DNA of 64,000 bases, taken from assembly GCF_963455295.1 (NCBI RefSeq), contig NZ_OY734020.1, forward strand, positions 3,658,001 through 3,722,000. The letters are read 5' to 3'. Positions 36,828 through 39,896 of this stretch are shown one piece after another. Each line of letters opens with the position of its first letter. Within the stretch, counting starts at the first letter, position 1. Origin of the DNA: Candidatus Thiodiazotropha sp. CDECU1. Lineage in GTDB: Bacteria; Pseudomonadota; Gammaproteobacteria; Chromatiales; Chromatiaceae. The notes under the pieces were generated by a model. That model saw only the letters and a list, made by a program, of their open reading frames with translations, was not told the DNA's origin and made no database searches. Both the position numbers and the translations under genes were made by a program.

Positions 36828-38098
36828 TTATCGCACTGGGTCTGATCCTGCTGGCGCTGTTCGGTGCGCCACTCTTCACCATTATCGGTGCCAGTGCCCT
36901 CTGGGGCTTCTACCAAGCCGACATCGATCTATCGGTTGTGGTCATCGAGTTCTTTCGCCTGGCGGAGATGCCGGTGCTTTTGGCCATTCCTCTGTTTACC
37001 TTCGCTGGTTATCTGCTGAGTGAGAGCGGTGCTCCCCATCGCCTGGTAAGACTTACCCAGGCGCTGCTGGGTTGGATCCCCGGCGGCATGGCCTTTGTCG
37101 CCCTGGTTGCCTGCGCCCTGTTCACCGCATTCACCGGTGCTTCAGGCGTCACCATCGTGGCACTGGGCGCCCTGCTCTACCCCGCTCTGCGGGAGGCGGG
37201 ATATGGACAGGGCTTCAGTCTCGGGCTGGTAACCACCTCCGGAAGCCTGGGGCTGCTGTTCGCACCGGCCCTGCCGTTGATCCTGTATGCAGTAGTTGCC
37301 CAGCAGCTGGGGATTGGCGGCTCCATTAGCGTGGATGAGATGTTCCTGGCAGGCCTGCTTCCCGGCCTGTTGATGCTGTTGATACTCGTTGCCTGGGCTC
37401 TCTGGTCGGGTCGAAAGCTGCCGCTGAACGAGTTTACTCTGGATGAGGCACAATCGGCCATACGTGAGGCTGCCTGGGAGATCCCGTTACCGATCATCCT
37501 GCTTGGCGGAATCTACAGCGGCTACTTTGCACTTTCCGAGGCCGCCGCGGTCACTGCGGTCTACGTGCTTATCGTAGAAGTCTTCATACACAGAGAGATC
37601 TCCCTCAAAAAGCTCCCGGAGGTGATGCGTGAGGCGATGTTGCTGGTAGGGGGGATCCTGGTCATATTCGGCCTCTCGATGGCATCCACCAACTACCTCA
37701 TCGATGCGGATGTTCCAAGCCAACTCTTCGACTGGCTGCATGAGCGGGTCGAAGACCCGCTCACATTCCTGATACTGCTGAACCTGTTTCTGCTGGTACT
37801 CGGCACCATGCTCGATATCTTCTCGGCACTGGTTTTGATGGTCCCTCTACTGCTACCTGTCGCTATCGAGTACGGTATCGATCCGGTCCATCTCGGGATT
37901 ATCTTTCTGGCAAACATGCAGATTGGGTACTTCACCCCGCCAGTGGGTATGAATCTTTTCATTGCCAGTTATCGCTTCGGCAAGCCGATCGCTGAAATCT
38001 ACCGCGCCACCCTTCCCTGGTTTGTCCTGCTGTTTGGCGCAGTATTGATTATCACCTATTGGCCCACACTCTCACTCGCCTTGCTCGAGCGTAATTGA
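36824..38098 (+). CDS. TRAP transporter large permease (DctM)
   Basis: 424-residue transport subunit with about 12 helices, using a sodium gradient in characterised systems. Conserved regions: VLLAIPLFTFAGYLLSESG, FTGASGVTIVALG, and IIFLANMQIGYFTPPVGMNLF. Its 3' end overlaps the convergent EamA gene by 43 bases, so full-length transcripts would be antisense over each other's ends. Confidence 0.93.
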   Translation: MIIALGLILLALFGAPLFTIIGASALWGFYQADIDLSVVVIEFFRLAEMPVLLAIPLFTFAGYLLSESGAPHRLVRLTQALLGWIPGGMAFVALVACALFTAFTGASGVTIVALGALLYPALREAGYGQGFSLGLVTTSGSLGLLFAPALPLILYAVVAQQLGIGGSISVDEMFLAGLLPGLLMLLILVAWALWSGRKLPLNEFTLDEAQSAIREAAWEIPLPIILLGGIYSGYFALSEAAAVTAVYVLIVEVFIHREISLKKLPEVMREAMLLVGGILVIFGLSMASTNYLIDADVPSQLFDWLHERVEDPLTFLILLNLFLLVLGTMLDIFSALVLMVPLLLPVAIEYGIDPVHLGIIFLANMQIGYFTPPVGMNLFIASYRFGKPIAEIYRATLPWFVLLFGAVLIITYWPTLSLALLERN

Positions 38099-38964
38099 GC
38101 ACTTATTCGACCACTCAATTCAAACCCGGCGAGTCCCAACATAATCAGTGCAGCGCCTGCCCATACCCGTAGGTCCACCTGTTCCGCGTTCAACCATTTC
38201 CCGGCCAACAGCGCGATAACCGGGGTCATCAGGGTTATCAGTGCCACCTTGGTCGTCTCCACATAACGCAATACGTAGAAATAGAGGGCAAAACCGAGCA
38301 CCGAGCCAACCACCCCCAGATAGACAATGGATGTAAGCGCTCGCTGCTCGACCACCACGGGCCAGCTCTCGCCCTGTAGAAACCAACTCAACAGAAACAG
38401 AGGCACCGCCACCATCAATCCACCGGCAGTCACTACCAGACCATGCAGCTGGGCATCGATACGCTTTACCCAGACCGCGCTGGCTGAGTGAGTGACCACC
38501 GAAACCAAGACACCGCTCAATCCCAAGACGAAGCTCACACCAAGCTCCACCCCCACGGAAAAGATCGTCGCCAAACCCACCAGCGCAATCATTACCGCCA
38601 GGAAACGCTGCAGATCGAGACCAGGCTCCTGCAACCAGATCCGCGCCATCAGGCCGGTAAATATCGGGGATAGTCCGAATACCACCGAGATCCATCCCGA
38701 AGGTATAAATTGGGATGCCCAATAGACCGCCGTCATGGCAATGAAAATCCCCAGACCCGCAGCCAGATAGGTGTGTCGCGCACGTTTATGCCAGGCCAGG
38801 CGCTGACCGATCAGGCGCAGTACCAACAGCGCCAGGGTGACGCCGATCACCATCCGGCCGGTCACACCAAACAGATAGCCAACACCCTCACCGCTCCACT
38901 TGATGGCAAGCGGTGTGGTACCCCAGATCAGCACGATCCCAAGATAGGCGGCCGGTACGGACAT
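38056..38964 (-). CDS. EamA/DMT-family exporter
   Basis: 302 residues with ten predicted helices in two EamA repeats (about 5-135 and 148-285), as in RhtA-like amino acid and metabolite exporters; TPLAIKWSGEGV and SGWISVVFGLSPIFTGLMA in the first, GVVGSVLGFALYFYVLRYVE in the second. GGGG precedes the ATG. Twenty bases upstream is a terminator hairpin pointing into the gene, with an antiterminator and a His-containing leader frame further up, so expression is probably attenuated. Confidence 0.9.
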   Translation of the reverse strand: MSVPAAYLGIVLIWGTTPLAIKWSGEGVGYLFGVTGRMVIGVTLALLVLRLIGQRLAWHKRARHTYLAAGLGIFIAMTAVYWASQFIPSGWISVVFGLSPIFTGLMARIWLQEPGLDLQRFLAVMIALVGLATIFSVGVELGVSFVLGLSGVLVSVVTHSASAVWVKRIDAQLHGLVVTAGGLMVAVPLFLLSWFLQGESWPVVVEQRALTSIVYLGVVGSVLGFALYFYVLRYVETTKVALITLMTPVIALLAGKWLNAEQVDLRVWAGAALIMLGLAGFELSGRISAQLRSSKASESVGQ

Positions 38965-38983
38965 TTAATTACCCCCTGTAACG

Positions 38984-39016
38984 AAAAAGGCCGCAGATGA
39001 TGTCATCTGCGGCCTT
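38984..39016 (-). terminator. Leader terminator upstream of EamA gene
   Basis: Minus-strand perfect 14-bp stem AAGGCCGCAGATGA / TCATCTGCGGCCTT whose 3' arm runs into TTTTTC. It ends 20 bases before the EamA start codon, so it would stop transcription before the gene: the position of an attenuator. Confidence 0.8.
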
Positions 39017-39063
39017 GGAAAAACTCAATTAGGTGTTTGCTAACTTCGTATCAAACTCCCGGA

Positions 39064-39071
39064 CGCAGATG
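39064..39071 (-). promoter_or_regulatory. Candidate antiterminator segment
   Basis: CATCTGCG on the minus strand, about 50 bases before the terminator, is fully complementary to CGCAGATG in the terminator's first arm. Pairing would block the terminator stem and allow read-through. Confidence 0.55.
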
Positions 39072-39106
39072 CATAACCGACTGCCCATACAGGTAGGCGG
39101 AGGCGC

Positions 39107-39163
39107 TTAATCATCATCTTTGTCTGGTGGAAGTTGTGCATGCCTATGAGCATGCATGCTCAT
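39107..39163 (-). CDS. Candidate leader peptide, His-containing
   Basis: 18-codon frame MSMHAHRHAQLPPDKDDD ending 91 bases before the leader terminator, a spacing close to that in classical his attenuators. Three His codons alternate with other residues (H-A-H-R-H). Against it: no good ribosome site precedes the ATG, and part of the frame is an 18-bp perfect palindrome (39146-39163), which may itself explain the repeated CAT codons. Confidence 0.4.
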   Translation of the reverse strand: MSMHAHRHAQLPPDKDDD

Positions 39164-39236
39164 GGCGATAAGGTCAAGTAGAGTTTTAAGATGTTACAAT
39201 CCTTGCTCAATAGCAAGACAAGCACAACATCACAAT

Positions 39237-39896
39237 ATGCAACTCTCCCCTCTCTTCCCCCCCAGTGTCGTGATCGTCAACTCCACTGAAGAGATGTGGC
39301 TGAAACCGCTCTGCATTGAAGAGGAGCAGCTGATTGAGGGGAGCGTTACAAAACGCCAAAGGGAGTTTCGTGCCGGCCGCAACGCGGCCCATGCCGCCCT
39401 GAGACAGCTCGACGCCCCTGCTGGACCATTGCTACGCGGCACAAAACGTCAACCGATCTGGCCGGATGGATTTATCGGTAGCATCAGCCACTGCAATGAC
39501 AATTGCGTCGCCGCCTGTGCGATTGCAGGCGAGATCGTCAGTTTGGGTATAGACATCGAACCACTCGATCCGCTAAAGCCGGGAATTGCCCGCTATATAG
39601 ATACGGATGAGGATAAGGCATTCATGCAACGCCATAAGGATTTGCCGCCACGCTTGATTTTCAGCGCCAAGGAGAGCCTGTATAAATGCTACTACCCTCT
39701 GGTCGAGCGCTTTTTCGGCTTTCAGTCGGTCTCACTGGATATCGACGCCTCGCGTCAGCAGTTTCAGTTCAGGCCCAGCGCCGCATGTACCATTGAGTTC
39801 CCGCAAAATCTGCATTTTCACGGCCGCTATCTGATTACAGAGAGACACCTCTATACAGGTTGTTATTTGACAATCGCCATGCCGATGAAAGATTAA
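39237..39896 (+). CDS. 4'-phosphopantetheinyl transferase
   Basis: 219-residue EntD/Sfp-superfamily enzyme that attaches the phosphopantetheine arm of CoA to carrier proteins. Signatures: GSISHCNDN, the Mg-binding LGIDIEPL, and FSAKESLYKCYYPL. The ATG at 39237 is chosen because an upstream extension (to 39156) overlaps the EamA leader. No polyketide or peptide synthetase is in the window, so its carrier protein is unknown. Confidence 0.92.
   Translation: MQLSPLFPPSVVIVNSTEEMWLKPLCIEEEQLIEGSVTKRQREFRAGRNAAHAALRQLDAPAGPLLRGTKRQPIWPDGFIGSISHCNDNCVAACAIAGEIVSLGIDIEPLDPLKPGIARYIDTDEDKAFMQRHKDLPPRLIFSAKESLYKCYYPLVERFFGFQSVSLDIDASRQQFQFRPSAACTIEFPQNLHFHGRYLITERHLYTGCYLTIAMPMKD

Follow-up and report, generated by a model that had tools for sequence, protein, structure and literature searches.

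The EamA-family transporter gene in the window (the whole 64,000-nt stretch of DNA analyzed here, part of a 4.46-Mb genome) is very likely controlled by a ribosome-mediated transcription attenuator, as judged by comparing its leader with those of its relatives, and Trp is the likely signal. The full reading, in which a Trp codon in a short leader ORF would sense shortage of charged tRNA-Trp and place the transporter in a Trp or Trp-related regulon, is one that we regard as probable. The layout, the reading frame, the conservation of Trp and the alternative pairings are supported by computation. The preliminary description of this DNA had already claimed ribosome-dependent attenuation of an EamA exporter, a view now supported by testing both conservation and base pairing in several genera. 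The elements are as follows:

39172..39177, minus strand: −35 box TTGACC, 17 nt from the −10 box; both boxes recur in relatives
39149..39154, minus strand: −10 box CATGCT, followed after 7 nt by the leader ATG (promoter scan of 69 leaders)
39040..39141, minus strand: leader ORF MHNFHQTKMMIKRLRLPVWAVGYASASGSLIRS, 33 codons, probably leaderless (translation; pN/pS)
39115..39135, minus strand: region 1, able to pair with region 2 as the anti-antiterminator (swap and slide tests)
39085..39087, minus strand: codon 19, an in-frame Trp that is conserved (66 of 69 leaders have Trp) and at which stalling is proposed
39054..39071, minus strand: region 2, the antiterminator arm, containing CATCTGCG (permutation and clade pairing tests)
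39004..39016, minus strand: region 3, the terminator 5′ arm (hairpin found in the window and RNAalifold on the clade)
38984..38999, minus strand: region 4, the terminator 3′ arm and the end of the T run
38056..38964, minus strand: EamA-family (DMT) transporter gene, 302 aa (Pfam EamA, 102.8 bits)

The EamA ATG is at 38964 on the minus strand, and a phosphopantetheinyl transferase gene lies upstream on the opposite strand. The EamA protein matched the NCBIfam TIGR00950 and YedA models below their cut-offs and the YddG model weakly (16 bits, cut-off 300); a search of solved structures with its sequence gave no matches at an E value of 0.1. The perfect terminator that had been claimed ahead of the exporter was confirmed as a hairpin at 39016-38987 (minus strand), with 13 bp in the stem and 4 nt in the loop, and a T run that reaches 38984 and ends ∼20 nt before the EamA ATG. 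The leader folded better than 200 of 200 shuffled versions (z of −3.9). At seven loci (L036, L043, L044, L076, L086, L126 and L155) the terminator lies 151 to 289 nt from EamA, and L036 and L043 carry repeat-like inserts in this interval.

Related loci were collected by a genome-contig scan (the best 80 of 530 loci), a relatives search (46 of 113 genomes) and a class search (97 of 369 genomes), the last two capped at 30 loci each, for a total of at least 137 loci with an EamA match. Dropping those with less than 200 nt upstream and merging identical 150-nt upstreams left 112. A region passed when an ATG ORF of 20 to 45 codons preceded the terminator and the promoter score was at least 8. The full layout, consisting of a promoter, an ATG 6 to 9 nt later, an ORF of 23 to 37 codons, a terminator and the exporter, was found in 95 of the 112 nonidentical upstream regions of EamA relatives. 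These are mostly gammaproteobacterial, with some from Mariprofundus, a member of the Zetaproteobacteria (the class is also named in two sequence-record titles). Judged by record title, the layout occurs in Thiodiazotropha, Lamellibrachia symbionts, Sedimenticola, Imhoffiella, Thiorhodococcus, Thiocystis, Thiocapsa, Marichromatium, Thioalkalivibrio and Mariprofundus, among others. The leader looks like an old RNA switch common to various sulfur- and iron-oxidizing bacteria. The EamA relatives include those in records titled Candidatus Thiodiazotropha and symbiont of Ctena orbiculata, the nearest being 99.7% identical (L052). Removal of peptides at least 0.75 alike reduced the 95 leaders to 70, and to 69 without L060 from the Lamellibrachia barhami symbiont, whose leader ORF is frameshifted relative to L040 and L059 and has no Trp. 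At 80 named loci the other EamA neighbors vary between lineages and gave no clue to the transporter substrate; the leader is retained with EamA while these neighbors change, and therefore leader and gene travel together.

The 17 regions that failed are of several kinds. Six (L049, L085, L088, L094, L106 and L123) belong to a type of EamA whose start differs, for which a GGCC-type terminator was looked for and none was seen. Four of these (L049, L085, L094 and L106) have no terminator but, as read by eye, an ORF of ∼15 to 17 codons that runs over the EamA start codon and has Trp at or close to its end, a possible case of translational coupling. No leader was seen at L097, L109 and L112 (Methylobacter, Methylococcaceae). 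The ORF or promoter fell under the score at L099, L104, L124 and L129, the detector chose an inner ATG at L047, and L108 also failed, as did L036 and L043, where the ORF was cut by the 420-nt limit. L047 and L049 had scored high enough and were excluded individually. A record titled Pontiellaceae bacterium B12219, after a family of another phylum, contains an EamA with 60% identity and a Trp-free version of the leader (L065); this is either contamination or transfer.

Comparison of the relatives identified a conserved frame, different from that of the leader peptide proposed in the preliminary description. The frame at 39141-39040 is open at equal length in 17 chosen leaders, and a sister group has 31 codons. 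Its pN/pS was 0.50 (0.42 over the first 66 nt) versus 1.02 and 0.88 in the other frames, as obtained from 12 of the 17 leaders by a simple pairwise count that ignores kinship. The leaders were aligned from a DNA search and a protein search, each with matches in 20 of the 21 genomes of the genus, part of the DNA matches spanning only the terminator.

The promoter lies very close to this frame. When gaps of −30 to 80 nt before the ATG were scanned in the 69 distinct leaders, the best promoter was 6 to 8 nt ahead of the leader ATG in 56; nine further leaders had tied best promoters, and every tie includes a gap of 5 to 9 nt. The leader ATG was picked partly by promoter score, and the control therefore put shuffled upstreams through the identical choice. 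A score of 8 was reached by all 69 leaders (by selection) versus a shuffle mean of 4.0, and a score of 10 by 59 of 69 versus a mean of 0.7. A Shine-Dalgarno core was present at only 2 of the 69 leader starts, compared to 64 of the 69 EamA starts. The absence of a good ribosome site, seen before in the window alone, is thus common to the relatives and compatible with a leaderless start. Because the leader AUG sits 7 nt past the −10 box and lacks a Shine-Dalgarno sequence, we infer that the leader mRNA is probably leaderless, with its start at or within 1 to 2 bases of the AUG. A leader without a ribosome site can thus be recovered by comparing the correct frame.

The 18-codon, His-containing frame MSMHAHRHAQLPPDKDDD of the preliminary description does exist at 39163-39107, but it is poorly conserved and starts upstream of the predicted transcription start. 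Of 12 clade sequences, one of them from the window itself, two keep the ATG of this frame (the window and the nearly identical L052); GTG stands at this place in four, three of which retain the 18-codon frame, and the frame ends after nine codons in five. The frame begins at 39163, between the two promoter boxes and 22 nt ahead of the conserved ORF, and therefore this promoter would not give transcription of the whole frame. Nor do His codons appear to be the sensor, as had been suggested: conservation of His in aligned leaders had been put forward as a check, and His occurs in codons 10 to 27 of the conserved frame in 34 of 69 leaders versus 29.8 in shuffles, which is not an enrichment. With no run of His in the conserved leader frame and the His-frame ATG present in 2 of 12 sequences, a his-type attenuator was rejected. 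The 18-bp palindrome described earlier is present and overlaps the −10 box, but it is kept at 18 bp in just 2 of the 12 clade sequences, the others having 16 bp (two), 14 bp (one) or at most 6 bp (seven).

The conserved frame is instead enriched in Trp. The leader peptides diverge strongly, but Trp lies within codons 10 to 28 in 66 of the 69 distinct leaders (92 of 95 before thinning), versus 17.4 ± 3.5 in shuffles (maximum of 29 in 500) and 28 and 13 of 69 in the other two frames; in the residue-by-residue comparison that included His, Trp again occurred in 66 of 69, versus 16.6 in shuffles. Across the 69 leaders Trp has an enrichment z of 13.5, followed by Ala (4.6), Cys (4.3), Met (3.3) and Arg (2.9). 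The phase of the antiterminator arm relative to the ORF varies (8, 19 and 19 leaders), but whatever the phase, 44 of these 46 leaders have an in-frame Trp, which points to the codon rather than to an RNA motif. Retention of Trp as an RNA element was rejected on the basis of these frame counts and the arm phase. In 43 of 46 leaders the Trp codon precedes the arm, in 38 of them by 7 to 26 nt. Three features count against a simple Trp sensor or qualify it. In 16 of those 43 leaders Trp is 1 to 11 nt from the arm, and a waiting ribosome would therefore cover part of the arm. Leaders of the trpL type use tandem Trp codons, whereas here tandem codons are not the rule and 41 of 69 leaders have a single Trp codon. 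Finally, two of the 69 leaders lack Trp altogether, and one more lacks it in codons 10 to 25.

The leader can adopt two pairings that would compete with the terminator. The upstream pairing reported for CATCTGCG is real: this segment, at 39071-39064, is complementary to the terminator 5′ arm, and the antiterminator is backed by a cross-genus permutation test. Leaders scored 14.49 with their own terminator arms versus 11.60 ± 0.34 with permuted ones from other species, with a maximum of 12.89 in 20,000 permutations; the test used 65 of 70 leaders (five have no anchor), and since the sequences are related it yields no exact probability. The arm begins 64 to 71 nt past the ATG in 41 of the 65 leaders, and clear pairs are formed by GGATTGCG/CGCAATCC in L045 and by GGCTCGCG/CGCGAGTC in L130. 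Within the clade, 97.3% of antiterminator cells are paired versus 24 to 45% when the arms are slid. Covariation of the hairpins in relatives had been named beforehand as a check; there are no doubly changed antiterminator pairs within the clade, where column shuffles did equally well in 500 of 500 cases, and thus it is the cross-genus test that supports the antiterminator.

For the 1:2 pairing, regions from the same leader gave −11.71 versus −9.66 ± 0.34 when swapped, and none of 5,000 swaps was as good (region 1 taken as nt 3 to 40; the 46 of 69 leaders passing the arm score). A control stretch, nt 30 to 48, showed no effect, with 3,393 of 5,000 swaps as good. Within the clade, 69.3% of 1:2 cells are paired versus 34 to 48% when slid; of 500 column shuffles, one reached this pairing and four reached the covariation score. 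Other measures of the 1:2 pairing were weaker: the seven doubly changed pairs in the clade were reached by 81 of 500 shuffles and are not unusual, the comparison with dinucleotide shuffles gave a z of −0.59 ± 0.17, and a swap test with the whole upstream ORF gave −10.19 versus −9.79 ± 0.27. RNAalifold on the clade recovered the terminator and not the alternative pairings. Both pairings are supported across species, the anti-antiterminator less evenly. A GAG stretch is present 3′ of the antiterminator arm (∼39060-39055 in the window), 8 to 22 nt from the arm start in 20 of 46 leaders, and is perhaps chance or a pausing site.

The terminator and the two alternative pairings suggest a trp-operon–type 1:2/2:3/3:4 switch. 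Transcription would begin at or near the AUG of the ∼30-codon leader ORF, and a ribosome would initiate on the leaderless 5′ end. A ribosome running freely to the stop codon would cover region 2, leaving the 3:4 terminator to form and the transporter off. With no translating ribosome, 1:2 would pair and 3:4 would again terminate transcription. A ribosome waiting at the Trp codon between regions 1 and 2 would block 1:2, allow 2:3 and so let the transporter be transcribed. Low Trp-tRNA would thus slow Trp decoding, leading to antitermination and transporter expression. The start site, the stalling, the direction of the response and the substrate are what we infer here. Given the Trp codon and what is established about attenuation, shortage of charged tRNA-Trp is the most likely signal, which makes membership of a Trp (or Trp-related) regulon most likely for the transporter. 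An exporter induced by Trp starvation is, however, odd and puzzling physiology, which counts against this reading.

In a rival reading the leader encodes an arrest peptide, in which basic residues and then Trp would stall the ribosome in the presence of the substrate or a ribosome-targeting drug and the same switch would turn the exporter on. A substrate-induced exporter makes physiological sense, and Arg is often found ahead of Trp, at −4 in 28 of 66 leaders and at −5 in 23 of 66. Arrest peptides, however, have fixed spacing, whereas here the stretch from the principal Trp to the end of the peptide varies from 7 to 26 residues, and no residue besides Trp is near-fixed; we therefore consider inducer-dependent arrest unlikely. 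A TnaC-type Trp arrest peptide, with its fixed spacing from Trp to the stall site at the ORF end, was rejected on the same grounds. A leader-peptide attenuator of an exporter does have a precedent in Bacillus subtilis bmrB-bmrCD, which according to PMC4191407 is an efflux pump under the control of a leader peptide and ribosome-targeting antibiotics. Unlike the EamA leader, bmrB has its terminator within the leader ORF, and the pump is an antibiotic-induced ABC transporter.

Alternatively, any slowing of the leading ribosome might cause readthrough, with Trp kept solely because its slow decoding sets the timing between ribosome and polymerase. The predominance of single Trp codons (41 of 69) fits such a general translation sensor, and with a leaderless 5′ end the switch would be tied to that mode of initiation; but other slow codons would serve equally, and only Trp is this strongly enriched, which makes this explanation improbable. 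Still harder to sustain is a small RNA gene with a terminator of its own. The terminator is strong and in some relatives stands 151 to 289 nt from EamA, but the element stays with EamA as other neighbors change and has a competing antiterminator and a coding frame, so that we give this idea very little weight. A metabolite-sensing leader without a peptide, the alternative offered in the preliminary description, is less likely in view of the reduced amino acid change in the frame and the lack of an Rfam riboswitch match. Known riboswitches and T-boxes were rejected, as Rfam at the gathering score gives nothing in 38900-39300; over the whole window it finds one tRNA only. The idea of a spare terminator was rejected by the antiterminator permutation test.

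The preferred reading, a Trp-codon attenuator, can be set beside known systems. Escherichia coli trpL has three alternative pairings, a Trp codon between regions 1 and 2 and a terminator before the first gene. The EamA leader resembles it in all three respects and differs in being probably leaderless, in its longer peptide with mostly one Trp codon, in an antiterminator arm that starts inside the ORF and in controlling a transporter rather than a biosynthetic gene. The nearest precedents that we found are the leaderless trpL of Sinorhizobium meliloti and the Trp-regulated ycbK of B. subtilis, a gene of the rtpA operon that encodes an EamA/DMT protein. As PMC7298713 describes it, the S. meliloti trpL/rnTrpL attenuator transcript begins with the leader-ORF ATG and has Trp codons, as is predicted for the EamA leader; its peptide, unlike ours, has 14 residues and stands before trpE(G). 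According to PMC11255114, PMC3971595 and PMC13170310, TRAP represses the putative efflux gene ycbK together with the Trp genes, rtpA responds to uncharged tRNA-Trp, and (among these sources) the drug/metabolite transporter superfamily includes the aromatic amino acid exporter YddG. Like the EamA gene as proposed here, ycbK is thus a putative efflux gene under Trp control, but rtpA and ycbK use a T-box and the TRAP protein rather than a ribosome-mediated attenuator.

Titles and opening lines of abstracts in the open-licence literature yielded no description of the EamA leader. In term searches, the words EamA and DUF6 were absent from a premature-terminator survey (PMC2965389), and a T-box transporter survey (PMC2494555) gave nothing useful on EamA. 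More tentatively, and at somewhat less than even confidence, the leaders may constitute an unrecognized ancient class of leaderless Trp-tRNA attenuators, defining a Trp-regulon transporter family in Gammaproteobacteria and Zetaproteobacteria that would be a Gram-negative counterpart of ycbK. Because of the leaderless 5′ end, such a switch would respond both to Trp-tRNA and to 70S initiation on leaderless mRNA, and its module could move to other genes with a change of codon; the instance cited for this movement is an Arg-rich, Trp-free copy before argD in one genome. The proposed Trp attenuator itself would be a widespread amino acid attenuator built on leaderless initiation and serving a transporter outside biosynthetic operons, and it predicts for an orphan EamA transporter family a signal, and with that a class of substrates, open to direct testing.

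Twenty-two leaders were used to build a covariance model, which matched 22 of 22 genomes of the genus at an E value of 0.1, many of these being in the model. For the class sample, the comparison drew 98 EamA places and 78 model matches from a longer listing. Among the entries listed, a match lay 0 to 400 nt upstream of 60 of the 98 EamA genes, three of them (G000, G010 and G405) in the model, and 22 of the 26 matches of at least 45 bits preceded a listed EamA gene; a 23rd, in G331, precedes a shortened EamA frame.

Similar leaders also stand before a few other genes, a point against the preferred reading. One with Trp (L215, G368:C21:60200-64200) is followed by a second short ORF, which likewise has a basic stretch and Trp, and then by a transglutaminase-like gene; 12 other genomes match this copy, solely over the terminator stretch. 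Another leader with Trp precedes an alpha/beta hydrolase gene (L204). The leader MNNLKPMALRMRFMLRLRGVNTVLCVLGKG, Arg-rich and Trp-free, has the same layout and is separated by repeat-like DNA from the argD (acetylornithine transaminase) gene that it precedes (L214, G103:C1:398900-401900). A search for relatives of this copy returned itself alone among 36 genomes from 36 genera, which is a poor test, and the argD leader may be chance. The window's own genome also carries the biosynthetic gene trpE (L159, G000:C1):

4138928-4140298, minus strand: trpE, window's own genome

Shortly before trpE ends a short frame, MALLSHDTTLMYGARWRW, which was read by eye and has two Trp codons; it looks like the Trp leader peptide of the biosynthetic operon.
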